From assembly GCA_963931925.1 (NCBI GenBank), contig OZ007582.1, positions 23,397,224-23,461,223 on the forward strand: a stretch of 64,000 bases of DNA. The letters are read 5' to 3'. Position numbers and translations under genes: made by a program. The notes under the pieces were generated by a model. That model was not told the DNA's origin and did not search any database. It saw nothing but the letters and a program-made list of their open reading frames with translations. This stretch comes from Onchidella celtica. Lineage: Eukaryota; Mollusca; Gastropoda; Systellommatophora; Onchidiidae. Shown one piece after another: positions 27,301 to 50,488 of the stretch (positions within the stretch are counted from its first letter, which is position 1; every line of letters begins with the position of its first letter).

Positions 27301-27598
27301 AACAAGACAGAGCCCAGTCAGAGAGGAAATTGGTAGGAGGCGATGGAGATGGATCGGCCACACTCTCAGGAGGCCAGGAAACAGCATCGCGAAGAAGGTA
27401 TGTATTGGATTGGAATCCCCAGGGCAAGAGATCAAGAGGAAGGCCGCGCGGAACGTGGAGAAGAGCCAGAGAAAATGATGTGCAACGAAGCGGAAAGACT
27501 TGGAATAATGTAAAGAGACTGGCCCATGATAGAGAGGGATGGAAAGTGTTTGTTGGTGGCCTATACCCTGATCCAGGGTGAGAAAGGCAATGATGATG
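24350..27598 (+). mobile_element. RTE-type LINE, nearly full length, frameshifted
   Basis: The element is bounded by an exact 12-bp duplication ATGGGCCTGGCG at 24338-24349 and 27599-27610. It has a short 5' leader, one endonuclease/reverse-transcriptase frame, a very short 3' UTR and a (GAT)n terminus. The length of about 3.25 kb and the lack of RNase H fit the RTE group. It lies inside the 23494-28501 inverted-repeat element, so it is younger than that element. Confidence 0.9.
24555..27581 (+). pseudogene. RTE LINE endonuclease-reverse transcriptase, three frameshifts
   Basis: The APE-type endonuclease is at the N-terminus (SWNVRSMYEAGK, VSETRW, MGDANAKIG, GSDHHMLLA), the reverse transcriptase in the middle (GKAAGPDQIPPE, YRGITLLSIPGK, QAGFRSNRSTTDQ, FADDLALL), and the C-terminal region GRPRGTWRRARENDV follows. 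Frame changes near 26112 (just before GKAAGPDQ), 26378 (an extra A in CCAAAAACTT, before LREEQAGFRSN) and about 27400 make it non-coding as it stands. There are few internal stops otherwise, so it is a fairly recent insertion. Such copies are often misnamed craniofacial development protein 2 in invertebrate annotations. Confidence 0.9.
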
Positions 27599-30536: not shown

Positions 30537-30670
30537 CTAGAGCAGAGAGAACAATGAGAACAGGCAAAGTGCCACATAATTAAAATGGAACAGGTTTAAT
30601 CCCGGAGCAGCTGCGTTGCCAGGTGCCTTTGTGACATCACCCGTCCCTGGTCCCCTAGAAATCGCTAGAT
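30537..30670 (-). CDS. Four-Cys gene terminal exon with GPI-signal-like tail
   Basis: A strong acceptor (CTCCCTTTCTCTCAG) precedes a phase-1 frame. It has a Gly/Thr/Pro stretch and small residues APGNAAAPG, then a hydrophobic stretch LNLFHFNYVALCLFSLFSLL directly before TAG. A small-residue site, short spacer and hydrophobic terminus with no cytoplasmic tail is the GPI-attachment pattern. A single-pass membrane anchor is the alternative. Confidence 0.6.
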
Positions 30671-33600
30671 CTGAGAGAAAGGGAGAATCAGATAGTTGAA
30701 CATTAATTTTACAACTTATAACTTAACTTACTTACTACAAATAGCCCATCGTTGGACAGGAAACACAATTATATAATGTAACTGCTATCGTATGTGGTAC
30801 ATTCTCACTGTAATAATTTATTGTGTGTCTTATATGTGTATGCATAATACATGTATGTGTACCGATTGTCTTCTCTCTCTCTCTCTTGCAATTATTTTGT
30901 TAATGTTTTTGTTATTAATAAAAATGACAATGTAAACGGATGAGAAAATATACATGTAGTTAACAACGAGGTGCAAAAAAATATGAAGGATTAGATGTTT
31001 GGTGCTAAGTAAATCTGACGAGCGCTAAAAGCTGAAATGTAACAAAACTAGTAGCTGTCTCCTTCTTCGGACGGTGAAAGACAAAAGACACTTTTCAGAT
31101 AAGAAAATTACCACAAAAAGTTAGGTTATCATAATTGTCGGGAAACGTAGCACTGGATCATCCACACCATTCAGAGAGTTATATTAGTTGTAAACAGATA
31201 GAATAGTACACCATTGTTTGGACCGAGAATTCTGCTGTGAGGATGACGTCTTCGCCTCATGCACTTGCGAATATACATTGTTAGTGAGTAAAGGATGGGA
31301 GGCGAAATCAACGATACCATTAAAAAAAAAAAGACTTCTCCATCATTTTACACCTCCAGATTTAAAAATGAACCCTCCGCAGGACGAAAGGAAGGCCTCT
31401 CACTTTCTAAATTTTAGCCTACGGAAATCCGAGCTGTATGAGCAGCGGTAATGTAGGTCTTACTGAAAACATCTGGTGCAAATCACGTTCTATATTTTTA
31501 GAACCACATGGATGGAGTCAAAGGAAGGATTGGTTGTAGTTAGAGTCATTCATCATAATGATTAACTTAAGCAACTTTGTGGTTTTTACTTCTTAGTTCC
31601 CTATCACAATTCCATCCCTCGGTTCCTGAGGAATTTCATTTATCACTGTCTGGGCGTTGAAGTTGCAGGGCTAGCCAAGTGTGCCCGTTTCTGAGTTCAA
31701 AATAGTCTGTAACCTTTCAGCAGAGATGCTGTTTGCCCCCCTCCTTGACAATCTGCAATCTGGTCTGACTTTTCCAATATTCCCTTACTGACCTATAGGA
31801 TGGACTGTTGTCCTTTTTTGTTCATTGATTTACCGATCGTCGTAGCAGCGGCCAGCACTAATGACTTTAACTCTTGTGCCTCGTAAATGGTAGAGTAATA
31901 CTATGAGAGTTAAGTTTGTTAGCATTTGATTACTATCGTGTGTGGTACATTCTCACAGTAAATACTTTATATCGGTGGTCTTCTCTCCCTCTCTCTCTTG
32001 TAATTATTTTGATTGGACATTAATAATGTGATATTAATATTTTGTTATTAATAAAAATGACAATGTAAAACGGATGAGAAAATATAGTTTACTACGAGGT
32101 GCAACCTCATCAGGCGTTTGTGGACATTAAAGGGAAACATTTTTACAATCAATACCTGGCGGTTGATGAGTTGAGTTTTGTCCAGGACTTGTAGCCTCAC
32201 CTGTGAAAGATGAAAAATTATGAAGGATTAGATGTTTGGTGCTAAGTAAATCTGACGAGCACTAAAAGCTGAAATCTAACAAAACTAGTAGCTGTCTCCT
32301 TCTTCGGACGGTGAAAGACAAAAGACACTTTTCAGATAAAAAAATTACCACAAAAAGTTAGGTTATCATAATTGTCGGGAAACGTAGCACTGGATCATCC
32401 ACACCATTCAGAGAGTTATATTAGTTGTAAACAGATAGAATAGTACACCATTGTTTGGACCGAGAATTCTGCTGTGAGGATGACGTCTTCGACTCATGCA
32501 TTTGCGAATATGTGTTAGTGAGTAAAGGATGGGAGGCGAAATCAGCGACACCATTAAAAAAAAATGACTTCTCCATCATTTTAGACCTCCAGATTTAAAA
32601 ATGAACCCTCCGCAGGACGAAAGGAAGGCCTCTCACTTTCTAAATTTTACGGAAATCCGAGCTGTATGAGCAGCGGTAATGTAGGTCTTACTGAAAACAT
32701 CTGGTGCAAATCACGTTCTATATTTTTAGAATCACATGGATGGAGTCAAAGGAAGGATTGGTTGTACATGTAGTTAGTGTCAAGACCAAATGATGTTAAA
32801 GGGAAATAACTTAATTAATACAATGTAGAGGGTGAATATGTATAACATGTGGAATACGTCATTTGTAGCTAAGGTCAAGGATGCAAGGACGGTATTTTTG
32901 ATGACGTCATTTTAAGCAAGAGGGAACTATTGAACAACAGGAAGGCGTAGATAAACAGTAGTATTCTAGTAAATAGAAGATCACTGGTGTTATGGTGAAT
33001 GGGCTATAGATAATCAGCGGGAATATATATACTAGGGGAAATGGTGGATATCAAGATGGAAATATAATGTGCTATATATGAAGATTAACACCCCGTTTTC
33101 AACGTGGGGGTGAGAACTTATTTGTCTACGTCACTTAGCCGTTAAGTTGATGACCAATCAATGCAGGCGTATTGATAATCAATAGGCAGCCGAGAAAGCA
33201 GTTGACGGGGGAACGGCATTCTAGGCAGCCTAGCCACTGCGAAAGGATCAGTGAAATTCCACTAGAGAGAATTATTCTTATAACGTACAGTATGTCTGGA
33301 TGAAGATCTAGTCATCGATCTATATGCTTGATTTGAGATCCACAATGCTTTTGTCCACTGTTCCCTGGCCTAGCGCCAGGGCAAATCGTGAGTAATTTGT
33401 CTGTTGATGACATCGACATGAATGAGGCGAAGAACATGACTTTTATCCGATAGGAGAATGATGAATCTACCAGGAGTGATTACCAGAGAATGCAAGATGT
33501 AAAGTTAAACTGCCATCTAGAGCAGCAACTAAATCTAGAGTTAATGTGTGAATTATATGGATCTAACTGTGATTGAATCTCTGCTGAAAGGTTACAGACT

Positions 33601-36600
33601 ATTTTGAACTCAGAAACGGGCACACTCGGCTAGCCCTGCAACATTAACGCCCAGACAGTGATAACTGAAATTCCTCAGGAACCCCTCTCCTTGACAATCT
33701 GCAATCTGGTCTGACATATCCAATATTTCCTTACTGACCTATAGAATGGACTGTTGTCGTTTTCTTTGTTGTTTTACCGATCGTCGTAGCAGCGGCCAGC
33801 ACTCGTGACTTTAATTCTTGTGCCTCGGTAATGGTACAGTATGAGAGTTAAGTTTGTTAGCATTTAATTTCTACCGTGTGTGGTAATTCTCACAGTAAAT
33901 AATTTATTGTGTGTCTCGTATATGTATGCATAATATGTGTGGCGGTTGTCTTCTCTCTCTCTCTTTCTTTTGTAATTATTTTGATTTGTCACTAATAGTG
34001 TTGTATTAATAAAAATAACAATGTAAAACGGACGAGAGAAAATAGTTTAGCACAGTATGAGGTGCAAACTCATCAGGCGTTTTGTGGACATTAAAGGGAA
34101 ACATTTTTACAATCACTACCTGGTGGTTGACGTGTTGAGGTTTGTCCAGGACTTGTATGCTCAGCTGCGAAAGATGAAAAATTATGAGGGATTAGATGTT
34201 TAGTGTTAAATTAATCTGACGAGCACTAAAAGCTGAAATCTAATAAAATTAGTACATGTAGCTGTCCCTTTCTTCGGACGGTAAAAAGATAAAAGGCACT
34301 TTTCAGATCTAAAAGAATTAGCACAAAAAGATAGGTTATAGACGCTCATTAGGCTAGTGTTAGTTATATGTACTAAAGCTTATCAGCGGGAATGGCAATT
34401 TCTAAGACTTCAAAACATTCAAAAGTTCATTCTGACCTCTCTCCAGTTCCTCAAGTATCAGCAGTACATCCCAGTCACATTCGAGACCATCTGCAATTCG
34501 TTCATTCACCTAGGCGTTAAATAGTGTCAGAATATCTGAATATGGCTGTGGGTATTGGTGCCAATTGTTGACTCGAAATCGACACTTTACATACTGTCTT
34601 CTTAGCCCACAGTTCAGGTCTCCTTTCTGAGAGACCAAAGTGTCCAGACAACCACCAGGGGTAACGGCAGCTTTGAACCCAAGGGATAAAATCGCCCACA
34701 CATAGTTAGTTGTAAAAGTTTGATTTGCAACACACAACTTCATGTACAGCGGGACTTTTTTTTCAGGTAGTGTGAAAAGCCATGGCCTAAGGGCAATATT
34801 GTTATGACACACTAGCAGTGGCCTCAGGATGATGGATAGAATTGGATAATATATATGCATACATATGTATTATCATAGTCTTCTTTTTTTTTTTTTACCT
34901 AAAACATAAAAAAAAAAGAACAGAAAACCCAGTATGACTACACTGGTGATTGATTATATCTGACAGTGTCTACCAGGATGCTGTCGTATTCAGTTTGTTG
35001 AGTGAAAGTGTTATTTAATTTCTTTTTCATACAGATAAGTATAATTTATTTATTTAAATATTTATTCATTTATTTACTTGTCGTTAGCAGCAACAACTGT
35101 GTGCAGCTGGTAAGAAACGAAGATACCCGGGCTTAGTCATCAGGTAGGAATGTACCGGTACTGGACATTAGAGGAGGAATGGAGACAAGACATTAAATAG
35201 TCAGTTTGAATGGCCACCGGAGAAAAAGATTCGCTGACTGACATATTATAGTTGGTAAGCAGATAAGTAAAGCCAGATTAATGTGGTAACTGACTGATTG
35301 GATGAGCAGCTACTATTCCTTGATGTATGTATAGAGGATGTGCCAGCTACCATGCTGTCAGAAGTCTAGATTTTGTAAATTTTTTTGTTTTTGTTTTAAT
35401 ATGTAAAAATTTAAGTAATCAAATTTTTATAGTGGCAATTTTATTTATCAGAATATGTATGAGTTCTTTTGTATGTGTGGTTGTATTTCTTAAATTTCTC
35501 TCTCTCTCGCTCTCTCTCTCGCACACACATACACACACACAAACTGTGTGTGTTTGTGTGTATACCTATCTGTCTGTCATTTCTCTCTTTCCCTGTATCT
35601 CTCTCCCTCTGTTGCGCTCTCTCTGTGCGTGTTTGTATATCTGTCTGTCTGTGTGGCTCTCTCTCTGTCTTCCTCTTCCTCTCTCTTCCTTTCTCGCTCT
35701 CTCTCTTTCTCTCTCCCTCTCTCTGTTCTCTCCCTCTCTCCTCTTTCTCTCTGCCTGCCTGTCTGTCTGTCTGTCTCTCTTCCCCAATCCATCTCAGCAT
35801 CCAGAACTGAGTTTGTTTACCTGGAGGCGTACTCTCTATTTTCCAGACAATCCCACTTCTCTTTTCCTGAAGAAGTTCTTCTTTTATCTTATGAGCACTG
35901 ATGTTGCAGGACAGGTGAAGTCTCTTTAGGTATGCATCAATTTCAAATTGTATTTCACCGACGAACCGGTCGTCCTCGCCAAAGTCGGCAAAATCCAATC
36001 TCATGTGACATTTCCAATCTTCTCTTTCTGATCTGCAAGATGGACCGCGATCTCTTTTCTCGTTGCTCTTCAAATTGTCGAAGCAGCGGCCGAAACTTAT
36101 AACTTGAACTGTGGAACCTTAAAATTGATATACTAAGCGTCAGCCTAAGTGCTCACAACCCATCTTAATTGGTCGATTAGTTGGATGTGACGTCACGACA
36201 CTGAGTTTCACTGAGACTTCACCCACCAGCCAACTGCTTTAATTTTCACTGAAACTCAGAATCGTGAATCCATCAAGCAGCCAGTAAACAGCTGGATCTC
36301 ATTACAACTCAATGTCGTGACGTCACTACCCAACTAGACGGCCAATTAAAATCGTTCAGTCCGTGCTGGGCCTTAAAGTTCCTAGCACAAAACCAAAAAT
36401 TATGTGTCGACCGTTTTAATACTTAAAACTATTGTATTATGTGAGAGGCAGTTTTTTTCCCTTTCTTGTACTTGTGATGCTCTAGCATTAACTACATCGT
36501 TTTGTCACGTTTATTACTGTTGGTGCGGATTATAATCATGATAGTGATGGAAATACTAGAACAGGGACAGGTTTTAACGTGATCAGGCAGAATCGGAGAC

Positions 36601-39600
36601 AATATAATACAGTTTTACACAAAAGATTAAAGGTGTGTCAAAAGATTTGATCACATGTTAATGTATAACTCACAAAATACTTCCACGGTACAATGAATAA
36701 CGCAGCTGTGTTTCATTTTTCACGAAAAACGTGTTTTACAAAAATCACAAAATAAATTTTTGTAAACGGTGATTTCCGCAGGTGATTGATTTTGGAATAG
36801 GATCCAGATGTTGTATTATAATTTATAATTTACCTGGTGGTGCAGGAGTCGTTACAGGTTGATCACCTGAAAGAGATATAAGATAGAGATGGGTTGGGAG
36901 ATAGGTTATTTAATGGCGAGTAAATTGAATAGTGTCAAATGTTTAAGATATGTTTAGACGCATGTGACGCCCACCGCTGGTACCCAGAACGCGCAGATTA
37001 AATTAATTTTAATTAATGAACTTTGCCTTGTGAAATTACGTTTAAATGGACCGGTGGTGATTTTTCATTTCCTTTAGAAAAACATCAGAGTCATTTTTGC
37101 TAAATATGCTCTGACATAAATGTGTTTGACGGACTGACTTGTGAATGGAAACGGTGGCCACTGCTACTTTAAAAAAGTTTATATCATTTAACATCTCTGA
37201 TCTGGTGATAGTTTATATCTTATATTTTCTTATGATTGCAGTTTTATTTATTAGAGCATGTTTGAATACTTTTGACAGTATGCAATTGTCAAACTCTCTC
37301 TCTCTCTCTCTCTCTCTCTTTGTGTCTCTCTGATAAAATCACCAACGCTTTCTTGTTTACTTTAAGGGAATAGCTCGTGAATCAAAAAGCGAGAATATAC
37401 TGATGGAATGGCAATAATTTCATCAATTCTGTCCTACAACGTCCAGAGTAAAGATACTTAACCCAGAACTAAATTCATACCTCCATTCTCACCTTTTTGC
37501 AAGTCTCGTAACATCTCGTGTACTTCCAAATCACAGAAGAGACCGTCTTTCCGTAGATCAGCCTCTATCTCATTCTCTATTTGCTGAATACCCTGATTTG
37601 ACAACTGTGATTTATGCAGTTCAAGGACTCGGAATCTACATTTCATGAACTGCCTGTCTATGTTACAGTTCAAGTCTCCAGCCTGTTCCACTTCAGCATT
37701 TCGAGTATCCAAACAGCCACCAATAGTAGTGGCGTTGTCGAAACCTGTCGATAGAATCGCAACAGACTCAATGAAATATGAAAGGAGACGAAAGCGGAAG
37801 CATCTAAAGGCGCTGTGAAGGTTTTTGACGTCTTCTTAACTTATAGGCAAGATGAGACTGACGTCATCCGGCAAAACAGCCGAAAACAAAACGCAACTCA
37901 AACCACTGTGTCTGAGCTCTGAAGATGGCTGAATGTTTGTGGATGTTTTGTTCTATGTGAAGAATAGTCCGATCAGTTGGCAAAACATCACATATTACAT
38001 TGTACTAGCCAACCCCGCAAGATTGTCTTTGAGGTTTTAAAGCAACTAATCGGTCAGTTTACCAATGTGATCCGAAATAACACCACTCCTATCCCATCCT
38101 CTCTTATTTCTACCAGGATTACCAGATTGAAATTTTAAGTTTAAGGCAAGCAATACCAAAAAAAAGAAAAAGAAAGCCAAAAAAATTCCAGTAGGCCTAC
38201 AGTTTTCACACTAATATCACACGAAAAGCGCCAGAGCCAGTTTCATGTCCTCCTCCCCACTGGAATGACTGGAACATTTGGCTTAAATCTTGTCAGTTGT
38301 GCATTTTTTTCCAAAGCATTTCTGGAGATGCAATGAAAGTCTTTGCAAACATTTATTTGAAAGCAATAGTTCTGCCTCGATTTTCACTATAGCATCAAGA
38401 ATTTCTAGTCTTTGTTTGAACTGCAGATACATCAGGAGATATCATTTTAACTGCAACACTGCTGTCTGGGATTATCAGGCAAACAAAGACAAAAGTGGCC
38501 AGCTCTGTAAATGCTTCATGGTGAATTGAAGAAATATAAAACCGCAGAAAACGTGTGGGGTCATAGCAAGGTTATAGACAAAATTTGGCAAAAAGGAAAA
38601 GTTTTATGTAGCAAAGCCTCGCATGAGAAATAATACCAAAACGATACAGTAGAACGCGAAGAGAAGCCCTAACTTGTAATACTTCGAGGCTGAACACTTG
38701 GGCGAACGTGCTGCGCTCCGAAAATTCAAGTCAGGACTCACAGTTAACTACTCGTACTGATTTAACATTCTACAAATATTTAATTTTCTTCAGTTTTTGT
38801 TATTGGTCAGTTTTTTGTTTTATTGTTTTGCTCAGATTCAAATGCAAACATTCATTTCGTGCATGACTTAGTGATTGGAGATCTCCAAATAGGACTGGTA
38901 TATTTATATAATTAACGGAGAAAAAAAAAGAAAAAGAACAGTTTTTGCATTTTTCATCTTTTCGTCATTGCCTTTTTTTTTTTTTTTTAAAAGTTTATTT
39001 GCTTTCATTTTACTCTTATTTCATTTACACATTCTCCACACTTTTCAATCATCCATTCATTCTTTGATTATTTATCCGGATATACTTTAAGATAATTTAT
39101 TTTTCTCTTACCTACATTTCTGTCTCAAATGCAAATTGAAGATGAACTTATTTGCCATATTTTATTTTACTGATACACATTTGAGCAAACTAGTAGTACA
39201 GTATTAATATCGTCAATAGTATTTTGATTTACAATATAAACTAAGTCCCCACGTAATATTCCAAAAAGTGCCATATTCTCATTTATTTTTTTTCTTCAAT
39301 TCTTTTCCCCGTTTTCTTCAAAATATACATGTACTGGGCCACATAAGGCCAATAGTCTTTCAATTTGCTGCAATGGAACAAGAAATGCTCTATAAAATCA
39401 GGCGTCTTACAGTACTCGCATTTATTACTTTCCTTTATTTTCATTTTATGTAAAAGAATATTCGGTGGGTAGGATTTAAAATGTAAGAGCCTCAATCTTA
39501 GTAGGGGGAATTAGGATATAATTGTGCAAATTAATGAAGAAAGCACCAAATTTGGCACAGACGATGCTAAAGCCACCAGGAACAAATGTTGCTATAGAAC

Positions 39601-42600
39601 CACTCTGGCAAATTTACCGAAATATGATTTTGAGGACCCTAAATATTTCCTTATATAAACTATATTAAAATCAGGGGACATAACTGCGGAAATAGCGTTG
39701 AGACTGGTATTTTGTGTTAGGAATATGTTTGTTTCGCGGGGCCACAAAAACCTAAATAATCGAGGTTTTCTTTAAAGAAATTGATATTATGAAAGAGGAT
39801 TGGTAAATCTGTAAAGATTTTGAAAGATTTTGAAAAAGAAATGCATTTTGAAAACGAAACGCATCAATTAATTTGCTCCCACATTAATCTCGGTCAGCCT
39901 GTGTGTGTGTGTGTGTGTTTCTTCGGCTCTTTCTCTTTCACCCTCCCCCTTCTCTTTCTGTTTCTCCCCAACCCCACCCCTTTCCGTCTCTGTCCATCTT
40001 TTTGTCTCTCTCCTCCCCCTCCCCCACCCCTTTCCATCTCTATCTTTTTGTCTCCCTTCTCCCTCTCTCTGTCTCCCTCATTCTCTTTCTCCTCCTCCTG
40101 TCTCCCTCTCTGTGTGTCTCTCTCTGTGTGTCTCTTTCTCTGTTTGTTTCCCTCTGTCTGCCCCCCCTCCTTGTCTTTTCCTTTCTCTCCCCCGACTGTG
40201 TGTCTGTTTGTGTTTCTCTTTCTACGTTTTCTTCTCCCTCTCGCTCTGTCTCTCCCTTCATCTCTGTATGTGTGTGTGTGTGTGGGGGGGGGGGGCGGGG
40301 AGTATCTCTCCATGGTCTCTCCCGTTCTCTCTATCTCTTAGTCTCTCCCATTCTCTTCACCTTCTGTATGCGTGTCGTTTTTGCTTGTACCTTGCTCGCT
40401 CTGTGTGTGTGTGTGTCTCTCTCTTCGCCTGTCTTTCTCCCTATCTGTGTGGGACAAGGTGGTCTAGAGGCAAGGTGCTCGCCTCTCATGCCAAGGGTCC
40501 CGGGTTCAAAACCCGGCCGGTGCAGGCATTTTGGAAGTTTGGGATTTTTCTCATATTTTCGTGTCCCTGATCCTACTGGGGGGTAGGATCGAGTACCTAG
40601 ACTTCTCGGATAAGGACGAAAAAATTCGGAGGGCCCGTGTGCACGTTGCGCACGTTAAAGATACCGTGGCAGTTATAAATCGAAAAGAGCAGGCCGAACA
40701 GGCCGCTGCCCGGGCAAAATTAAATAAAAATTCATCCCTACTATTTCCTCCCCCCCCACACACACACAAAAAACCGCCGATCGGCGCTGCACTGTGGCGA
40801 CGACGTGCTTGCTCCAGTTGTAACTGGGCTGCAATGGCACAAAGGCAAATTTCCCAAATGGGATTAAAGAGTTATACAAATACAAATACAAAATACAAAT
40901 ACATGTGTAATGTGTGTGTGTGTCTCTCTCTTTCTTTTTGTCAGTCTCTTCCCCCAGCTCTCTGTCTTTTTCTTTATCTATGTATCTTTTTTTCTTTCTG
41001 TCTCTGGATGCCTTTTCCCTCCCTGTCTCCTTCTCTCTCTGTCTTTTCCCCCTGCTCTCTATGTCTCTGACTCTGCTTTTCCCCCTTCTCTCTTTGCGCC
41101 TGTCTCTCTCTGTCTTTTTTCCCATTTTCTCTGTGCCTCTGTCTCTCTCTCTCTCTGCCTTTTCCCTCTGCTCTCTGTCTCTATGTCTTTTCTCCCTTTG
41201 CCTCTGTGTCTTTTCCCCCTGCTCTGTCTCTCTGTCTTTCCCCCCCTTCTCTCTGTGTTTCTGTCTCTTTGTCTTTTGCCCCTTTCTCGTCTGTGTCTCT
41301 GTCTATTTTTTTTTTCTCCTTCTCTCTGTCTTTTTTCCCTGCTCTCCGTGTCTGTGTCTGTTTCTGACTATTTCCCTCTCTCTCTCTCTCTCTCTGGCCA
41401 CCTGTGACCTCTCATCCCCTCTCCTGGCCTCGCTTCCTCTCTCGCTCTCCCCTCCTCCTTCCTCAAAGTAGTCGCTATTTTTCCAGTCTACTTAATGCAT
41501 ATCAACAATTTTCCGTCGAGTGTGAATGCGTGTGTGAAAACTAACAAGGGGACCCTAGCGGCGAGGGATCCCCCTGCGACACTTAACATGTTGCAAATCA
41601 ACGTCTGCGGCCTACGCCCGAAGGTCCTGGAGCTAACTAAGCTCCTCAAGTCAAAACACATCCATGTAGCTCTCCTTCAAGAGACTCTGCTGAATGGGAG
41701 AGGCGCGCACGTCACAGGGTATACCATATACACCTGCTCGTATACCAAATGCCGAGGCATTGCCACACTGGTTCGCAATGACGTAACAGCTGTGAGGCCA
41801 CACGCCCCGACGAGCAATGGTGAAACTGATACCCTCACTCTTACAGTATGGAAGGACGGCGTGACCTTCACCATCACGAATGTCTATAACCCTCCTAAGG
41901 TCCCCTGCGACCTAGGGTTGACAGAGGCTACCTTGAATAATACAATCATTGGAGGAGACTTCAACGCACGAAGTCCTGAAATGGGGTACGCCCCAGAATC
42001 GACGAACGTTGCAGGAAGAAACGTCGAAGATCTCCTCCTAAGTTCTAACCTGGTCCGGATACAATCAGCCGACTCCGCGCCCACCTGCCTGCATCGATCA
42101 AACGGCGCGGAGAGTCGGCCCGACATTACGCTTCTATCTGCTGACCTCGTTACCCGACACAGCTACGCAGTCCTCGAGGACGTAGGTAGCGACCACCTTC
42201 CTCTCCTCGTACAAATACAGACTAAAACAGCTAAGAAGAAGGAGAAGCGTTTAAACTGGAATTATAAACAAGGTAGATGGGAAGAGTTCAGAGAGATTTT
42301 AGGTTTAACTCTGAACGAGGTGGACCCAAACCAGGGTACTATTGATGAAGCCAATGCCGTACTGACTTCGGCCGTGCTCGCAGCTGCTAAGCGGAGTATT
42401 CCGCGAGGTCTGCAGCCCCTAAATCGCTTGCCCTGGTCAAAGGAACTTGAACAGGCGGTCCAACAGCGTAAGAGGGCGAGAAGAAAAGCAAAAACGAGCA
42501 CGGCGGCCAGAATCGAATATAACAGATTGACCGCCAAAGTCAAGCTGTTGTCTAGAAGCACCAAAAGGGCAAAGTGGTTAAACCTGTGCGAGTCTCTGAA

Positions 42601-45600
42601 CGTGGACCCGAGTGGTGGCCGAGCGTGGACCGTCCTGAATCGCCTTAATCGGGGGCAAAGAATGAAGAATGTCGCTCCGATACGGGCAAACGGGACGGTC
42701 GCGGTGACAGACCATAAACGTGCAATCATGCTTAACCGACACTTTGCCAGTACAAATAAGAGTGGCAAAGCTACGAATACGAACAAGGGGCTCCGTAAGG
42801 TCAGGCGTCAGCTCGAACATTCGCAGGTAGACAGCGATTACGAGGGCCTTAACAGTGAGTTCACCCTAGAGGAACTGGAGAGAGCACTTGGCAAGTGTAA
42901 AAATCGTAAAGCGCCAGGCCCGGACAAAATCTCTAACGAGATGTTGCACCAGATGGGCCCCACGGCAAAGAAATGGCTCCTAGCCTTAATAAATAGAACG
43001 TGGCATCAAGGAAAGCTCTCTATTGACTGGAAAAAGGCCGTGGTGACAGCTATCCCGAAATCAGGCAAAGATGGTACCGAACCATCACATTACAGGCCAA
43101 TCTCCCTTACCTCTTGCATCTGCAAAGTAGGGGAGAGGATGGTTAACTACCGGCTGACCTGGTATCTAGAAGAGTGCGGTCTTCTAGACAGACACCAGGC
43201 GGGCTTCCGTAGTGGCAGGCAGACGATGGACCAGCTTATCCGATTGACCCAAGCGGTCAATAATGGTTTCCATAGGCGGGAGCATACGATCGCCGTATTC
43301 GTCGATCTCAGACAAGCGTACGATAAGGTGTGTAAAGGTGGGCTACTCCTTAAACTACTCAAGGCGGAGGTCAAAGGAAATCTGTACGGATGGGTAAAAG
43401 ATTTCCTGCACAATCGAACAGTCCGCACCAGAGTGAACGGACAGACCTTAAGCCAACTCACCATGGAGAATGGCCTGCCGCAAGGTTCAGCGTTAAGCTG
43501 CACGCTGTTTGCAGCTTACACCAGCGACCTTACCCAACACCTGAGATGCGAAAAAGCGATGTATGCCGATGATATGGTAATCTGGAGGACAGGAAAGCAG
43601 GTCAAATGGCTACAGCCAGACCTTAACCGGGACCTCGCGACGCTTGCCTGCTACTGCCGATTGTGGAAGATGGAGATAAACGTCGATAAGACCGTTTATC
43701 AACTCTTCACCAACGGCAAACACGCCCAGAAAGCCACCATCACTCTTAAGATCAATGGCCAGACACTCAAAAGGGAAAGCGCACCACGATACCTGGGAGT
43801 TAAACTTGACAACAGGCTCAACTTGCAAACGCACGTCAGCAAGCTTGAGTCTGAGGCTAGGAGGCGATTAACACTGTTAAAAATGCTCGCCAGTACCAAC
43901 TGGGGTGCCACTGGGAAGGTTCTCAGACAGCTATATCTAGCCTACGTCCGAGCAGGCCTAGAGTATAGCCTGCCACTGCAACCAATGGCCAGCGACCGAA
44001 CGCTGTCGGCGCTGGACCGAGTTCAGAACAGCGCCTTGAGACTCATAACAGGCTGCCTCAAATCCACTCCTACGAATGCTCTGGAAATCATGACCAATGT
44101 GGAACCACTGGCAACCAGAAGGGAAGGAAGCGTACTACAGCAGTACGAGAGGTTAAAAAGGCTCGAGCCGGACTATCCGGCGCGGGAGGCGATCGAAATC
44201 GACCCTCCACCGAGAATACTTCAGAAGAAGTCGTGCCTGGGCGAAGCCAAACGGCTAATTGAGGAGTATGGGCTAGAACAAGACAGAATGCCCCTTCGGT
44301 TATGGACGAAAGAGCCACCTCACGCCTCCCTGAAACCCCCAGTGGTCAAAACCACGCTACTAGACACAAACATGACTAAGGAGGTCAATCCCACGATTCT
44401 GAAAACGGCTGCTGGCGAAACTATTGACTCGTACCCAGCACACATGATTAAGGCTTATACTGACGGCTCGGCAGTACAGGCGACTACGAATGCGGGGTAC
44501 GGAGCAATAATCTACTACTCTGACGGCACCGACACCTAAACGATCTATGGGCCTTGCGGGGCGAACGGCTCCAACTTCGACGCTGAGGCGACAGCGATTT
44601 GGAGAACAATGACTACGGTTTTCAACGGCTTTGAAAACGGAACAGTATCGCCAGAAGATATTGTTGTGTTCTCAGACTCAAGGGCCACACTGATGGCCGT
44701 CCAATCGCTCAACCACAAGCTCGAGGCACATGGTGCAGATAAAATCAGACATATCTGCTACCAGATCATAAGTGGATACGGTGTCGAGGTCCACCTCCAG
44801 TGGATCCCCGCGCACATAGGAATCCGGGGCAACGAGGTTGCAGATAGCCTAGCGAAACAGGGGACCAGAGGCGAACAGCCAAAGCACCCCACGTCTTACC
44901 CAGCAGCCCGAGCCAGAATCCGCGCTCACGGACGCAGGAAATGGCTAGATCAATGGGCAAACTCGGATAAAGGACGTAGGGTGTATCATAACCAAACCAA
45001 ACCAGACATCAAAGACCCGATATTGACACTAGAGCGAAAATACGCGACAGTCATACAGCGTATGAGGTCGGGACATGTCCAGTTGAACGCACATCCAGAT
45101 CGTTGCAACCCACTCCGTGAGCCAGTATGCCGGCACTGCGGGTCCCCGCAGGAGACAGTCGAGCACATCCTGGCGGAGTGCCAAGGACTAAAACACCTCA
45201 GATCACGCTACCTCCCAGATACCCCAACAGTCTCTAACTGCCTTTATGGGGCCGTAACACAACTTAAGAATACTGCCATATTCGCCATCGCCGTCACGAG
45301 TGAAAACTCAATCGGCCAGGGATGAGCAATAGAACAATTTTCCGTGGTCCTACCGCTTCCTCTCTGCTATAATACAAGTGACTGGCTGTTCTGCCCGGAC
45401 AAAATCAATTAAAATTCACCCCTCCCTCTCTCCCTCATCTCCGACCCCCCCTCCCCCCAACAAAAAAACCCCCCTAAAACAAACCGCCGACCGGCGCTGC
45501 ACTGTGGCGACGCCATCCCCGCTCCAGTTGTAACTGGGTGCAATGACACAAAGACAAATTCCCCAAATGGGATCAAAGTAGTATACAAATACAAAAGCCA

Positions 45601-48600
45601 GGACAAAAGCCAAAACGCCAATCAATTTTTTTACGCCAACCAAATCTCTAAAAAGCCAAATTTCTGGCATTTGGCACTAAAAAGGCCAATCTGGTAACCC
45701 TATTAATCTACCAGCACCCCCAGCTATTAAAAGAGATGAGGGTGGGGTGGTTTCTATGCTTTAGGCTGAGGCCCCCGGGAAACAAAAGGATCTCAGGATT
45801 CTATGCGTAACTTATGAATGAGTGAACTTTGCCGGTGTCAGTCTCATTGTCATTAGGTTTGGCTATGGAACTTTCTGAGGACCAGGGCCGTGATGAAAGA
45901 CAGACTTATTTTGGTTTTCAATGGGAACGGCCAGAAATTAACGTAGGAAATCTTGTGTAATGGTCAATATGTAATTGTTCGAATTAAGCCAGGCCTAAAT
46001 GACAAAGCAGCAGAATTGTAAACCTTAGAGATTAATGCAAAAATGGACGTTCCACTTGACTTGTGAATTACACAATGTATATGATATTGTGTAATATTAT
46101 GATAATAATTTTCTTAATACTTATTTATTCAGTGTCAGCGACCGGATGAACCCTGGATAGTGAGAAAGGGCTATGATGAGTAACTAACAAAGTTAGGGCA
46201 TTGCGTAGGAATGAAGAATACAATAGATTTGTGCCCCCCCCCCCCCCAAAAAGAGATTTTATTGCACTTAGGCTGATTGTTCAATGTGTGCTCTGTAAAA
46301 AAGTAACGCCGTCTGACATAACACACCAACCAGTAGTAAGGTGGGTAGGAGGGAGATACATTAAGATTAAGGAGATGGCTGAGTCGGCGAATAGTGAGGT
46401 GATGGACAGAATGTTAATTAAATAAGTGAGAGGCTGAGTAAGTTTTTAAGAATAGAATCAGGCTGTCGAAGAGGTATGTAGATTATATAATCATGTTTCT
46501 GTGTAAATGACAAGATGACAGTCATGACAGTATATGCTTAAAAAGAAAGTTGGTCCGACGGGACGCATCAACATCTGGAGGTATAAGGATATTTACCTGG
46601 AGGGGCTATATTTACTGTGTCCCACACAATTCCATCCCTCCGTTCCTGAAGAATTTCATTTCTCATTGTCTGAGCGTTGATGTTGCAGGGCTGACCGAGT
46701 AGTGCCGTTTCTGAGTTCAAACTAGTCTGTAACCATCTAGCAGTGATGGAGTCCGCCCCCCACTTGACAATCAACAATCTGGCGTGACATTTCCAATATT
46801 CCCTCATTGACCTACAGGATGGACCGTTGTCCTTTTTGTAGTTGATTTCACGTTCGTCATAGCAGCGGCCGGCACTGATGACTTTAACTCTTGTGCCTTG
46901 GTAATGATACAGTGTGAGAGTTAAGTTTGTTAGCATTTGATTTCTATTGTGTGTGGTACATTCTCACAGAAAATAATTTATTGTGTGTCTTGAATATGTA
47001 TGCATAATACAGTATGTGTATCGGTTGTCTTTTCGCTCTCTCGCTCTTTCTCTCTTGAAATTATTTTGATTGGTCATTAACAATGTTATATTAATGTTTT
47101 GTTATTAATAAAAATGACGATGTAGAACGGATGAGAAAACATAGTTACTATGAGGTGCAAACTCAGCAGGCGATCGACGACATTAAAGAAAAACATTTTT
47201 ACATCAATACCTCGTGGTTGACGAATTTTGGTTTGTCCAAGACTTGTATGCTCACCTGTGAACGATGAAAAATTATGAAGGATTAGATGTTTAGTGCTGA
47301 GTAAACCTGATCAGCACTTAAAGTCGAAATCTAAGAAAACTAGTAGCTGTCTCCTTCTTCGGACGGTAAAAGGTAGAAGACAAAAGGCACTTTTCAGATC
47401 CAAAAGAATTAGGATAAAAAAAATAAGTTATCATACCTGCGGGGAAATACAGCACTGGATCATCCAAAAAATTCAGCAAGTTATACTATTTATAGACAGA
47501 TAGAATAGTACAGTATTATTTGCACCATAAAAATACTATTATTACATCAGTCCTCACGAGGTCACATGGCTTCGAACTAATAGAATCGCGTGGAGGCCAT
47601 TTTGTGTTGGGCTGGCGATCGGATTTCGGAAGTCTGAGTTTTTTCTGTACGGCAGGCAAGATGGTTCGAAATTGATGTGTTTTCCAGTGCTTTAACACTC
47701 AAGCAAAGACAATCCTTATTCGTTCCACAGATAAGAATTTAATTTAATTAATATAAGTTACCTGTTAGACCTACGTATATTTCGTTAATTATCTTCAGAT
47801 GGGTGCGGTTCTTCCATAAAATATTTCTATCCTTTTGTCCTTCCCACCTTACGCTGAGCAAGCCCAGTTTACGATACAACGTCTTTCATTCTCCCCCACA
47901 CCATTCGTGATCCTTTGTCTCAATTACAATGAAAATTACACGCTCGCGAAAGAAACGAACGGAAGACTTAAGGTGGGGGGGGGGGGAGGAAAGGGAAAAG
48001 AGAATCAGAGAATAGAAATGTTTCATGGAAGAACCGTAGTGATCTCTACTACACCAAAACCGTGAATCACTGATATTTTTCATATCCCATATTAAGGTTC
48101 GAATTTGAAAATGGGCAGTATATGCTCATATATCCATTGTTAGTGGCCAGTTTGACCATAGGCCACATAACTGACCAGTATGACCACTTTTGACAAAAGC
48201 TAAAGTTTATCAAATTTTGGACGACTAGACCTGTCTTATTAGTAAAATCTGATACTGATAAACGAAATATGGCGCGATGACCTTTAAAATAAGTGAACTG
48301 ACCATCCGACGGACCAGTGGTCCTAGTAGAAATCAAAACTGTGAGGATGTATGAACTCGGTCAAAGAACATTCCCAGTCATATGACAACGAAACCAGCGT
48401 ATTCCCGGACGCTGCACATTGGAAAATACCAGTTAACACACCTACAACGAAATAATTACCTGCAGACTATATGGTACATAGCCCTGCTACCAGACATTTT
48501 AGTCTTTTTCAAGGCAGGTAAGAGAGTAGACACGACTGAGCTAACAATTCCATACAGGAGTTGCATTGGTAAACATAAAATTGAAACTGATCATGACCAC

Positions 48601-50488
48601 CGATCTGGCGAAGGAAATAGACAGAACGGTTACTCGCCGAAACTTCCACTGAAAAAAAGGAGCACCGGTGTACAATCTGGAAAGCGGCTTGGCGTGAGGG
48701 ACAGAATGAGGTCAACAACCCTGAAGACATTGACAGAGGTGGCTGAAGTGACTTTCAGCAGGATATAGAACAAATAGAATGACCATAAAAAAAAAAAAAT
48801 TACATTGACCCAAACTATTGCATTACTATGGAGCCCTATTGTGCACCCCGTGTCTCACAAATACAAACGCCAAAGAGTAATGAGCATGGTCAGGTCCGGG
48901 GCGAAGCGTGGCCCTCTCCAGAGGGTAATCAGAATTTAAGCTAGTAAAATCCTCATAATAGGGCGTATCGCTACATCATATTTACATAATTATAAATGCA
49001 GCGACTAAAACAATGAAACGGGTGCTGGGCACTGCAAATTCTAAAGAGCGGTCTATTCTTGTCAACAGGACAGGAATGCAGCAAATAACAAGCCAAACTA
49101 ATCTGAAAATACCATTCATTCATACTAACAGACTTATTTTTCATCCATTTTTAAAAATATAATTTGAACGGCAAGTTTTCATTGTCAAAAGACCTGATAG
49201 TTTTATATCCTTATTTCAAAGCGCTTCCATTTCTTAATCTCTTCAAAGGGTCTGGATGTGGATACCTTTTTTGTTTAATATCATGTGATATAACTGTTCA
49301 AAAGGAGGGAGTTGGCGGCGGGGGTGGGGGGGGGGGGGAGGGATACTATTACATTTTAAACAAAAACAAACAGTGCATTGATAACGTCATCATTAGCCAA
49401 TGACGAACTCGTCCTAATTAAGTAACTTTGCCTTTTTTTGCTAGGCCGTTACCTAATTATGCAGAGATCCAGATTTGAATGCTTCAGAACAATAAATTAA
49501 ACGAACTAAAATGTGGCCAAAAAAAGAAAAAAAAACATGTTGGTCAGAGAGCCGAGTATTAGAAGCAAACAAAAAAACAACAACAACAATACAATAAACT
49601 CCAAAAGAAATGAAAAGGCAATATTATTATTTTGGTATTTATGGAATTCATTGCATAGTTTTGTTGTTGTAGTTGTTGATGATGTTGTTGTTTTTAAGGC
49701 GGGGCTTTGTGACCTTTTTTTTTTTCATCTACGTTTTAGCTTTTTCCCAAACCCCGCTGCCATCCCACTTTATTTCATCTAAACTAAGTGACTGCGCTTA
49801 ACATTGTCAACAGTATGCTTTTTGAAATAGGAAGGATGGATCCTTTCATTCGCTCCAAACCTCTCCACGATATTTTGATAACGCTACGCCACGAGTGGAC
49901 TGAATTGTGCAGTGTATAAGTTTGGCGGTGTTTCTGTCTTACGGATGCCCACACAAATATTTCTGCCAACTTCCAACGGTTCCTGTCTCGTTATGTGAGA
50001 TCCCTCAGGGTGGTTCTCTATCACATTTTGTATATTTTGAAGTACTCTATTCACACTCAAAGTTTGGTGCCTTCACCAAACTGTGTACAATTCACATAGA
50101 AAAAACAACAACCCCTAAATGACTCTACTATTTATTTGCTGTAGAAAAATTGGCAGATTTTTTGCTGCTGCGGCAGGATTGTAATAAAATGGTTTCATTA
50201 ATTTATCATTATGCCAAGCACTCTTTTCATGCAGTGAGTCACGGGCCCCGTTCAAGATCAGGGCTCTATCCCGTATTATCTAACTCCGTTGTCTCCGCTC
50301 CGCGTGTACTGTGTTCCCCTGCGCCTTTCCCTTTGCATTCTGTTTCTGAATTCTTCACCATAATCAACATTTAGACGTACAGCATAAAAATTTAATTCTG
50401 TTCTCAAAGCAAAGTAAATAATAATTAATGTCAACTTACCGACCAAAATCATCAGTACCGTGAATATGGAGATATAGTAGGAAGACAT
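30537..50488 (-). CDS. GPI-anchored protein with repeated four-cysteine domain, 9 recognised exons
   Basis: Reconstructed on the minus strand: signal exon 50488-50440; linker 47255-47211; domain 46896-46597; domain 37744-37493; linker 36866-36834; domain 36108-35821; linkers 34164-34120 and 32200-32156; last exon 30670-30537. The sum is 1191 nt, or 396 residues plus TAG. All boundaries are AG/GT and every internal exon is phase 1-1, the layout expected for exon duplication. The three domains share C-x15-C-x8-C-x33/34-C, with [LYF]-D after Cys1 and [FYW]-x-K-C at Cys3. Linkers are Pro/Thr/Ser-rich. The protein should be secreted and lipid-anchored. I do not recognise the domain. Extra exons may be missing, since elsewhere linkers sit between paired domains. 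Three more domain exons (34437-34679, 33578-33823, ~31598-31879) are decayed. A secreted non-anchored splice form cannot be excluded. Confidence 0.65.
30777..31560. repeat. Intragenic duplication, copy 1 (linker deleted)
   Basis: Matches 31917-32775 at well over 90%, for example TCCTTCTTCGGACGGTGAAA, GTAGCACTGGATCATCCACA and the GACGTCTTCG region. It lacks about 240 bp that in copy 2 contains the linker exon: GAGGTGCAA joins directly to AAAATATGAAGGATTAG near 30970-30985. Confidence 0.85.
31598..31879 (-). pseudogene. Decayed four-Cys domain exon (B1)
   Basis: Aligns throughout with the intact exon 46597-46896. The Cys2 codon TGT reads TAT and the Cys3 codon reads AGT, an indel shifts the frame after the KEGG stretch to a TGA, and the 3' end with the GTAAAT donor is missing. 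The acceptor AG is still present. It cannot encode the domain. Confidence 0.8.
31917..32775. repeat. Intragenic duplication, copy 2 (with linker exon)
   Basis: The most complete copy of the intronic unit that recurs at 30777-31560, 33845-34345 and 46921-47510. It contains the linker exon 32156-32200. Near-identity to copy 1 implies a recent duplication. Confidence 0.85.
32156..32200 (-). CDS. Linker exon (copy 2)
   Basis: 45 nt between TTTCACAG and GTATTG, phase 1-1, encoding EATSPGQNSTHQPP plus split Gly codons. It has one N-S-T sequon and is rich in Ser/Thr/Pro, suiting an extended glycosylated spacer. Confidence 0.55.
32776..33577. other. Unique intronic spacer
   Basis: No homology to neighbouring units and no coding signal recognised. 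Its insertion separates repeat copies 2 and 3. Confidence 0.5.
33578..33823 (-). pseudogene. Decayed four-Cys domain exon with internal inversion (B2)
   Basis: 33684-33823 aligns with the 5' half of B1 in the normal orientation. 33578-33683 aligns to the B1 3' half (31622-31743) only as its reverse complement, for example GGTTACAGACTATTTTGAAC against GTTCAAAATAGTCTGTAACC. The inverted half destroys the reading frame and removes the donor. Confidence 0.85.
33845..34345. repeat. Intragenic duplication, copy 3
   Basis: Aligns with copies 2 and 4 across the TTATTAATAAAAATGACAAT, CATCAGGCGTTTTGTGGACA and TTCTTCGGACGGT blocks. It contains linker exon 34120-34164 and is more diverged than the copy 1/2 pair. 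Confidence 0.8.
34120..34164 (-). CDS. Linker exon (copy 3)
   Basis: 45 nt, phase 1-1, between TTTCGCAG and GTAGTG, encoding AEHTSPGQTSTRQPP. The splice sites are intact even though the domain exons beside it are broken, so it may still be spliced. Confidence 0.5.
34437..34679 (-). pseudogene. Decayed four-Cys domain exon (A1)
   Basis: Homologous to 37493-37744: GGCLDTLVSQKGDLNCGLRR, then QYVKCRFRV, and after a TAG at LFNA-stop the same frame continues with VNERIADGLECDWDVLLILE. Cys1-Cys2 spacing is 12 instead of 15. The acceptor position reads TG instead of AG. Two independent lesions make it a pseudo-exon. Confidence 0.8.
35500..35795. repeat. Polypyrimidine/CA tract
   Basis: TC-rich with CTGT and CACA runs. 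Open frames in several phases (SLSLSL, RERERE) are compositional. It lies in the intron directly after exon 35821-36108. Confidence 0.9.
35821..36108 (-). CDS. Four-Cys domain exon (B3)
   Basis: 288 nt, phase 1-1, acceptor TTCCACAG, donor GTAAAC. Starts VQVISFGRCFDNLKSNEK. Cysteines fit C-x15-C-x8-C-x33-C (RCFD, PSCRS, WKCHM, LSCNI). It ends GIVWKIESTPPG. No stops; all four Cys are kept. Confidence 0.7.
36163..36351. mobile_element. Short MITE with TGACGTCA in its inverted repeats
   Basis: TTAATTGGTCGATTAGTTGG...GTGACGTCACGACACTGAGTT on the left matches the reverse complement of AACTCAATGTCGTGACGTCAC...CAACTAGACGGCCAATTAA on the right, about 45 bp per arm. The centre is also partly palindromic (CTGAGTTTC/GAAACTCAG). 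Boundaries are approximate; no target duplication is certain. Confidence 0.7.
36834..36866 (-). CDS. Short linker exon
   Basis: 33 nt, phase 1-1, acceptor CTCTTTCAG, donor GTAAAT, encoding DQPVTTPAPP. It lies between the two intact domain exons 37493-37744 and 35821-36108. Confidence 0.55.
37493..37744 (-). CDS. Four-Cys domain exon (A2)
   Basis: 252 nt, phase 1-1, acceptor ATCGACAG, donor GTGAGA. Reads GFDNATTIGGCLDTRNAEVE, then DLNCNIDRQFMKCRFRVLEL, and GLFCDLEVHEMLRDLQK. Cysteine spacing is C-x15-C-x8-C-x34-C, the same as the B exons despite low overall identity. It has an N-A-T sequon. Confidence 0.7.
37745..39049. other. Intron of the four-Cys gene
   Basis: Holds a copy of the 63.2 kb dispersed repeat near 38555-38670 (TGTGGGGTCATAGCAAGG...GCAAAGCCTCGCATGAGAAA). 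No exon was recognised. Confidence 0.5.
39050..39520 (-). pseudogene. LINE C-terminal remnant (L1/Tx1-like)
   Basis: Reads LLHFKSYPPNILLHKMKI, then the zf-RVT-type CEYCKTPDFIEHFLFHC, then KDYWPYVAQYM. After frame breaks it continues as GDLVYIVNQNTIDDINTVLL with stops. The C-x2-C-x7-H-x4-C knuckle with these flanks is typical of the C-terminus of L1/Tx1-group LINEs. Decayed and 5' truncated. Confidence 0.6.
39898..41470. repeat. Polypyrimidine tract interrupted by a SINE
   Basis: Long runs of TCTCTCTG/TTTCCCCC in two blocks (39898-40449 and 40903-41470), with the SINE at 40450-40902 between them. Several long frames of SLSL/PPPP on + and RERE on - are compositional and are not called. Confidence 0.9.
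40450..40902 (+). mobile_element. tRNA-derived SINE, copy 2 (LINE-tailed)
   Basis: Same architecture as 14522-14993: tRNA-like head with GGTCTAGAGGCAAGG and CCCGGGTTCAAAACCCGG, a body with AGGGCCCGTGTGCACGTTGC, and a tail CGGCGCTGCACTGTGGCGAC...CCAGTTGTAACTGGG ending in (AAATAC)n. The B box is closer to consensus than in copy 1. Confidence 0.9.
41495..45325 (+). pseudogene. LINE ORF2: endonuclease, RT, RNase H, zinc knuckle; single internal stop
   Basis: 1277 codons in one frame with a single TAA at 44537-44539. APE endonuclease at residues ~30-235 (MLQINVCGLRPK, LLQETLL, GGDFNARS, GSDHLPLL). Reverse transcriptase at ~470-720 (KAPGPDKISNEML, YRPISLTS, QAGFRSGRQT, YADDM). RNase H from ~985 (YTDGSA, DAEATAI, FSDSRA, GNEVAD, all four acidic positions present). 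A C-terminal CRHC...ETVEHILAEC knuckle follows. The RNase H after RT places it in the I group (I/Nimb/R1/Loa-like). The stop falls between the first and second RNase H acidic residues. With one lesion in 3.8 kb this is a young copy. Confidence 0.92.
45390..45600 (+). repeat. LINE 3' tail shared with the SINEs
   Basis: CTGCCCGGACAAAATCAATT, CCGACCGGCGCTGCACTGTG, CTCCAGTTGTAACTGGGTGC and ATACAAATACAAA align in order with 14780-14993 and 40690-40902, including the C-rich stretch between them. The SINEs carry this LINE's 3' recognition end. Confidence 0.9.
45606..46590. other. Intron of the four-Cys gene
   Basis: No exon recognised. It contains a poly-C run near 46237 and otherwise plain sequence. 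Confidence 0.5.
46597..46896 (-). CDS. Four-Cys domain exon (B4)
   Basis: 300 nt, phase 1-1, acceptor ATTACCAAG, donor GTAAAT. TRVKVISAGRCYDEREINYK begins the domain. Cysteines lie in RCYD, PSCRS, WKCHA and QPCNI with spacings 15, 8 and 33. It ends GIVWDTVNIAPPG. Fully open with all cysteines present; the best-preserved B copy. Confidence 0.72.
46921..47510. repeat. Intragenic duplication, copy 4
   Basis: Aligns to the units at 30.8, 31.9 and 33.8 kb (GTGTGTGGTACATTCTCACA, TTATTAATAAAAATGACGAT, CTTCTTCGGACGG). It carries linker exon 47211-47255. Confidence 0.8.
47211..47255 (-). CDS. Linker exon (copy 4)
   Basis: 45 nt, phase 1-1, acceptor CGTTCACAG, donor GTATTG, encoding EHTSLGQTKIRQPR plus split Gly codons. 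It joins the signal exon in phase. Confidence 0.55.
47520..48480. other. Intron 1 of the four-Cys gene, distal part
   Basis: No exon recognised. A poly-G run lies near 47975. Confidence 0.45.
48490..48768 (+). pseudogene. Degenerate restriction-like-endonuclease (RLE) fragment
   Basis: LPDILVFFKAGKRVDTTELT then IPYRS matches the intact frame at 51650-52174 (RPDIVFHSASTKQIIMVELT then ISYES), with the same 14-residue spacing between Asp and Glu of the PD...ExT motif. The following K-x2-K-Y region is garbled, and the frame resumes as LTEVAEV before a stop. Likely a retrotransposon C-terminus scrap. Confidence 0.55.
48769..50430. other. Intron 1 of the four-Cys gene
   Basis: No coding pieces identified. 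Poly-G near 49325 and CAA repeats near 49575 are the only patterns. Confidence 0.45.
50440..50488 (-). CDS. Four-Cys gene exon 1 (signal peptide)
   Basis: The ATG encodes MSSYYISIFTVLMILVG with a hydrophobic core ISIFTVLMILV, then a consensus GTAAGT donor after one base of the next codon. Phase 1 matches all downstream exons. No upstream in-frame ATG lies nearby. Confidence 0.65.

Follow-up and report, generated by a model that had tools for sequence, protein, structure and literature searches.

A 64,000-nucleotide stretch of the genome of the mollusc Onchidella celtica (hereafter the window; C16:23397224-23461223, where C16 is contig OZ007582.1 of the 1.14-Gb, 43-contig assembly GCA_963931925.1) carries what appears, on balance, to be an intact gene, whose product would be a secreted surface protein tethered to the membrane and composed of four-cysteine domains, with a likely role in variable recognition. 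The gene model comprises nine exons on the minus strand, which extend from an ATG at position 50488 to a stop codon at position 30537 in the order E1-L1-D1-D3-L36-D2-L34-L32-T. The case for this gene is stronger than the initial annotation of the locus could show because two paralogs, called B1 and B2, carry the same gene. We also observe several features beyond that annotation, including a large family in the genome, the pairing of type-A and type-B domains, three dead domain copies, and the probable origin of two linkers by duplication. The exons are listed below with their window coordinates.

50440..50488, minus strand: E1, start codon and predicted signal peptide (MSSYYISIFTVLMILV, followed by G); phase-1 donor gtaagt; the same 49-base exon is present in B1 and B2
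47211..47255, minus strand: L1, linker exon EHTSLGQTKIRQPR; phase 1-1; present in both paralogs
46597..46896, minus strand: D1, type-A domain exon with four cysteines; open and ungapped relative to both paralogs
37493..37744 (alternative end 37481), minus strand: D3, type-B domain exon with four cysteines; placed by splice signals and paralogs
36834..36866, minus strand: L36, linker exon DQPVTTPAPP; phase 1-1; identical in B1, with an 11-base deletion in B2
35821..36117, minus strand: D2, type-A domain exon with four cysteines; placed by splice signals, motif, and paralogs
34120..34164, minus strand: L34, linker exon EHTSPGQTSTRQPP; leftover of a duplicated L1-D1 unit
32156..32200, minus strand: L32, linker exon EATSPGQNSTHQPP; leftover of a duplicated L1-D1 unit
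30537..30664 (or from 30670), minus strand: T, terminal exon with a GNAAAPG small-residue stretch, the hydrophobic end YVALCLFSLFSLL, and the stop codon; the start at 30664 uses the acceptor shared with the paralogs

The ends, splice sites, and phase-1 joins proposed initially are all borne out, on the minus strand. AG and GT dinucleotides are present at every internal exon border, all joins are in phase 1, and the lengths of the internal exons are multiples of three. The product has 397 to 403 residues, depending on the choice of D3 donor and T acceptor, versus the 396 given initially. At D3, the donor at 37493 scores 10.9 versus 7.2 for the alternative that ends the exon at 37481. Use of the weaker donor yields 403 residues, the stronger yields 399, and both changes together yield 397 (the last two values by arithmetic). 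The second T acceptor lies 6 bases downstream of the first and is an AG in both B1 and B2. Among the other donors, those of E1, D1, and L36 each score 9.0 and that of D2 scores 7.8. The 3′ end of the gene is unplaced because the nearest AATAAA lies 1493 bases beyond the stop codon.

The predicted product has three N-glycosylation sequons, and 12 of its 13 cysteines are located inside the domains. Its hydrophobic peaks are confined to the two ends, and the features of glycosylphosphatidylinositol (GPI) attachment seen in it are the hydrophobic stretch at each end and the small-residue site only.

A six-frame scan of the window recovered the pattern C-x15-C-x8-C-x33/34-C, first noted in three exons, at exactly three places (46685-46864, 35906-36085, and 37533-37715), whereas 60 versions of the window simulated with a first-order Markov model gave a mean count of 0.017 and a maximum of 1. 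The three domains are related beyond what shuffled sequences produce, with local alignment scores of 220 (D1-D2), 54 (D1-D3), and 75 (D2-D3) that were each reached in 0 of 2000 shuffles. When a profile of D1, D2, and D3 was run over the open frames of the window, only pieces of D4, D5, and D6, the dead copies described below, rose above the inclusion threshold besides the three domains themselves.

The initial annotation could not name this domain, and profile searches against Pfam and PDB sequences likewise returned no well-known domain, with nothing over the curated cut-off in the former and no convincing match in the latter. Neither the 403-residue product (2477 candidates) nor the D1/D2/D3 alignment (15 candidates) gave a match at an expectation value (E) ≤1 in a set of 5.8 billion proteins; these queries represent only the window product and its domains, which are possibly more diverged than other family copies, and the result does not show absence from other species. 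A retrotransposon at 41408-45325, used as a control query, had the slug Arion vulgaris as its best organism-named match, and therefore this protein set contains some mollusc sequence. Scans of viral and prokaryote contigs revealed no relative of the domain. Keyword searches of the literature, mostly of open sources, for a described mollusc family of such proteins gave a single listing, a paper on cone-snail venom, and a search on DUF19 gave nothing of use.

In the paralogs B1 (C16, approximately 23.485-23.498 Mb) and B2 (C16, approximately 23.544-23.559 Mb), the exon order is E1, L1, D1, D3, L36, D2, D4, and T, with D4 intact in both. Because both share the exon order of the window, the proposal that the nine exons belong together as one gene is well supported, and these exons are presumably joined in one transcript. 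Relative to B1 and B2, the window copies of D1, D3, and D2 are exactly unchanged in length, lack stop codons, and have all twelve domain cysteines. Identities to B1 and B2, respectively, are 0.870 and 0.847 for D1, 0.848 and 0.855 for D2, 0.844 and 0.778 for L1, 0.952 in both cases for D3, 0.953 and 0.969 for T, and 0.898 and 0.980 for E1. The D1-D3 intron is about 9 kb long in the window versus about 2.5 kb in B1 and B2, and at 41408-45325 (plus strand) it holds the non-long-terminal-repeat retrotransposon mentioned above (endonuclease, reverse transcriptase, and RNase H), which has an in-frame stop before RNase H.

Comparison of exons with noncoding DNA, restricted to collinear BLAST pieces, reveals how these domains change. 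The mismatch fraction of D1, D3, and D2 combined is 0.113 relative to B1 and 0.119 relative to B2, compared with 0.120 and 0.117 for noncoding DNA. However, only two gap openings were observed in the domain exons in each comparison, versus 13.7 (B1) and 14.2 (B2) expected (Poisson P = 1.2e-4 and 7.8e-5), which makes them approximately seven times rarer than in noncoding DNA. The domain sequence drifts about as fast as noncoding DNA while its framework stays. The initial description of the protein as fast-evolving, originally guessed from the low identity among its domains, now has a rate measured between paralogous genes, though this does not amount to positive selection.

The domain also recurs elsewhere in the genome. 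Queries with D1, with a type-A exon from a two-domain gene, and with a type-B exon matched 51, 92, and 83 places at E ≤1; rows at E ≤0.01 (45, 67, and 72) were merged by joining starts within 200 bases, and the resulting counts are lower bounds for large families. At least 97 domain places exist in the genome, a total that includes the three dead window copies, with 8 on contig C9 and 89 on C16. Those on C16 form four clusters near 6.4-6.5, 15.3, 23.4-23.9, and 26.2-27.0 Mb. In the genes with two or four domains within the 200 kb examined, a type-A domain, which has GRC or GQC at cysteine 1, precedes a type-B domain, which has GGC or GEC.

For conservation, we used copies with E ≤1e-7 and a length of 65 residues or more, plus six others, a set of 47 places with 42 distinct copies from which weaker or shorter copies were dropped. 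Cysteines 2, 3, and 4 are present in 42 of 42 copies and cysteine 1 in 41 (the remaining row is truncated there), figures that are somewhat circular because profile selection favors conserved copies. A lysine precedes cysteine 3 in 40 of the 42, a glycine is located three residues before cysteine 4 in 39, and the 15-8-33/34 spacing is kept in 35.

Exon borders and gene ends also recur in the family. A phase-1 AG is located 5 to 11 bases ahead of the domain in 14 of 14 further domain exons (only phase-1 sites were listed), and a phase-1 GT follows the domain in all seven further type-A exons; several type-B exons are last exons. A scan for short hydrophobic first exons found eight 49-base signal-type exons with a phase-1 donor, like E1 of the window (two in B1, one in B2, one in B3, three in B4, and one in B6), along with six candidates that differ in length (B3, two; B4, one; B5, two; B9, one). 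The scan gave no signal exon in the array blocks B7 and B8, and a DNA match to E1 in B3 was not recovered as an intact exon. Five type-B open frames (B1, B2, two in B4, and B6) end in NHSP and a hydrophobic stretch such as YSLTSLILALLVIKIF, an ending not seen in the examined part of the B5 type-B frame. In two-domain genes, the hydrophobic tail comes after the type-B domain.

One further family locus has an unusual organization. At G000:C16:26426871-26456128 (loci L048 and L049), 13 domain-bearing places are spaced approximately 2417 bases apart, and neighbors are identical at 2411 of 2417 and 2407 of 2417 positions in two comparisons. No signal exon was seen in the parts examined. The array may represent a single giant repeat gene, or it may have expanded recently in the manner of a satellite.

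Structure prediction suggests what the conserved framework might hold together. The best AlphaFold2 model of D1, built on a three-sequence alignment, has a predicted local distance difference test (pLDDT) score of 86.6 and a predicted template modeling score of 0.76, with helices at residues 8-21, 27-45, 49-66, and 74-86 and a short strand at either end. The best D3 model (four rows, one being the dead D4 read through) has a pLDDT of 78.5 and the same helix order. The domain is thus predicted to be a small four-helix fold. A three-finger beta fold of the Ly6/uPAR type disagrees with the predicted helical models of D1 and D3, and Pfam gave no match to it.

The initial annotation had proposed modeling a domain to learn whether its cysteines pair. 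The modeling provides a fold, whereas the pairing was reasoned from helix register and not read from model coordinates. A C27-C36 bond is unlikely because these residues lie nine positions apart on the same helix. Antiparallel packing would place C11 next to C36 and C27 next to C70, and thus the most likely disulfides are C1-C3 and C2-C4.

The window also contains three dead copies of the domain.

34426..34679, minus strand: D4, dead type-B domain exon; in-frame stop, acceptor AG lost; an intact copy is present in both paralogs
33577..33841, minus strand: D5, dead type-A remnant; stop codons, part inverted
31605..31897, minus strand: D6, dead type-A remnant; frame broken, with stop codons

D5 and D6 derive from duplicated L1-D1 units, and the linkers of these units, L34 and L32, still have intact splice sites at either end. 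As queries in B1, B2, and B3, L34 and L32 matched only the single L1-type site and no separate copy. Because of this match pattern and the death of D5 and D6, the window gene probably gained two linkers by duplication while losing the domains that accompanied them. With dead domain exons adjoining linkers that have intact splice sites, the gene shows how frame-neutral exon death could lengthen a stalk at the expense of domains. Among the repeated cassettes within the window, linker identity is 0.78-0.84 and intron identity is 0.69-0.90, with too few bases for a claim. A recent duplication of approximately 560 bases (30976-31538 and 32213-32766, 96% identical with gaps) has one copy beside L32 and the other between D6 and T.

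We propose that the encoded protein begins with a signal peptide, continues with alternating type-A and type-B domains separated by short linkers rich in Pro, Thr, and Ser, and ends with a C-terminal GPI-type signal. The C1-C3 and C2-C4 bonds would clamp the four-helix fold, and the rest of each domain would therefore be free to change. Because exon borders are in phase 1, a whole domain can be gained, lost, or skipped with the frame intact. The gene is one member of an expanded family carried mainly by one contig. Its likely work would be variable recognition at a cell or mucus surface, in contact with parasites or microbes or with gametes. The exon signals and phases, the family, the conservation of cysteines and frame, and the rates of substitution and gaps are observed. 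The signal peptide, anchor, and fold are predicted from sequence, whereas the single transcript, the disulfides, and the recognition function are what we infer from the whole.

Several observations weigh against this reading. Three linker donors are weak, with scores of 3.7 (L1), 5.1 (L34), and 4.7 (L32), where the 90th percentile of 1353 minus-strand GT sites is 4.2. Neither B1 nor B2 has an AG at the position of the window's first T acceptor. The 11-base deletion in L36 of B2 (about C16:23548900, locus L037) would disrupt the reading frame if the exon is retained; its phase 1-1 borders allow it to be skipped. Confidence in the structure is confined to the best of five models, as the other D1 models have pLDDT scores of 76.3, 63.3, 57.0, and 54.2, the lower-ranked D3 models reach 53.7 or less, and the underlying alignments hold just three and four sequences.

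The substitution data count against it as well. Pooled ratios of nonsynonymous to synonymous change (dN/dS) are 0.97 for window-B1, 0.93 for window-B2, and 0.83 for B1-B2; all are near 1 and none is distinguishable from it or lies above it (Fisher P 0.80-1.0). With no ratio above 1, relaxed constraint and positive selection account equally well for the substitutions, and we do not claim the latter. D3 has both a low dN (0.05) and a low dS (0.04), which suggests that gene conversion or infrequent mutation, and not selection, is at work; purifying selection on D3 was dropped as an explanation since dS is low as well. The two-domain type-A exons are somewhat more constrained (sum dN/sum dS of 0.64 for 55 pairs of 11 exons). 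The overall pattern looks like that of a frame-constrained protein whose residues change freely, and it may reflect either diversifying selection or relaxed constraint.

A less likely but still credible alternative to a role in defense is that the same secreted, tethered, fast-changing modules are used between sperm and egg. Clustering and near-neutral residue change with kept cysteines suit reproductive as well as immune proteins. The sperm-lysin model PF01303 is unmatched in the genome, but it is unmatched in control genomes too and hence is uninformative. We give similarly limited credence to the idea that the tail is not a GPI signal, such that the protein has a C-terminal transmembrane segment or is simply secreted. 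In some two-domain genes, the last residues beyond the hydrophobic stretch are VIKIF or VITIF, an ending that fits a tail-anchored transmembrane protein too and so also counts against the favored reading. In contrast, the window tail runs from a small-residue site through a spacer to a hydrophobic end that bears no charge and has no residues behind it.

It is improbable that the window copy is a decaying gene left open by chance while the family functions elsewhere. Decay would account for the death of D4 and two duplicated cassettes, for dN/dS near 1, and for the weak linker donors. However, D1, D3, and D2 have neither stops nor length changes relative to either paralog, their twelve cysteines are intact, and they show the deficit of gap openings noted above. 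An intact gene for a tethered recognition protein continues to be our preferred reading.

Elsewhere in the window, additional reverse-transcriptase open frames are present at 24438-27478 (plus strand, with endonuclease and DUF6451 matches) and 60421-61494 (minus strand). An exon-like frame at 20180-20734 (plus strand) matches an acyl-ACP thioesterase C-terminal model barely above its cut-off (22.1 versus 21 bits), and a frame at 18217-18876 that has no Pfam match resembles part of the same kind of gene. At about 13200-18200 (plus strand), a long tandem repeat with strong GC skew reads like THPPTHALTHLLMHSPTYSC in several frames.

Some known proteins resemble the predicted product in architecture. 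GDNF-family receptor alpha proteins have a signal peptide, tandem helical cysteine-rich domains, and a GPI tail. The window protein would share this arrangement, including a GPI-type tail, but has four cysteines per domain rather than many more, and D1, D2, and D3 gave no Pfam match to the GDNF-receptor model at E ≤10. Repulsive guidance molecules (RGMs) carry a GDPH self-cleavage motif, which is absent from the translated window product as read by eye. RGM_N likewise has no match in D1, D2, or D3 (Pfam, E ≤10), and the one RGM_N match of the genome is elsewhere, on contig C1. RGM (PMC7354924) is like the predicted window protein in being a GPI-type protein with a helical cysteine domain, and weak fold-search rows for D1 may point to it, but it is unlike the window protein in having three disulfides where each domain here has four cysteines, and in lacking the tandem domains and large family. 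A signaling co-receptor that works like RGM, with a tethered helical cysteine domain presenting a helix to a growth factor, is very unlikely.

A molluscan parallel is Grctm6 of the snail Guadeloupe Resistance Complex (PMC5310918). Like the putative surface proteins described here, those of that complex form clusters, match no known domain, and vary to an unusual degree in their extracellular part. Unlike our family, Grctm6 is a single-pass transmembrane protein that has an intracellular part of more than 200 residues and an ectodomain predicted to be richer in strands than helices, a comparison made by description only.

An organizational parallel is with the class 1-1 extracellular modules of animal mosaic proteins, which are associated with exon shuffling. 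According to one account (PMC8001218), most of these modules are of the beta class, and mainly-alpha ones make up a negligible share. Like them, the four-cysteine domain occupies one exon with phase-1 introns on both sides, as found in the window gene and in D1, D3, and D2 of two paralogs, would be extracellular, and is duplicated within and between genes. It is also reused in different arrangements (A-B two-domain genes, A-B-A-B genes, and the 2417-base domain array). Unlike those modules as described there, it is predicted to be helical, has no Pfam match, and is found here in one genome only.

We speculate, with considerable doubt, that in a mollusc lineage a new all-helical two-disulfide module is the building block of a clustered, diversifying family of surface receptors whose genes, owing to phase-1 borders, stay unbroken as domains are gained, silenced, or reduced to bare stalk. 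Variable recognition would then need neither immunoglobulin nor lectin domains. Should the protein exist as predicted, the family would be a large, clustered, fast-changing candidate for defense or mating, and a helical module would join the phase-1-exon extracellular modules, most of which have beta folds according to that account (PMC8001218).
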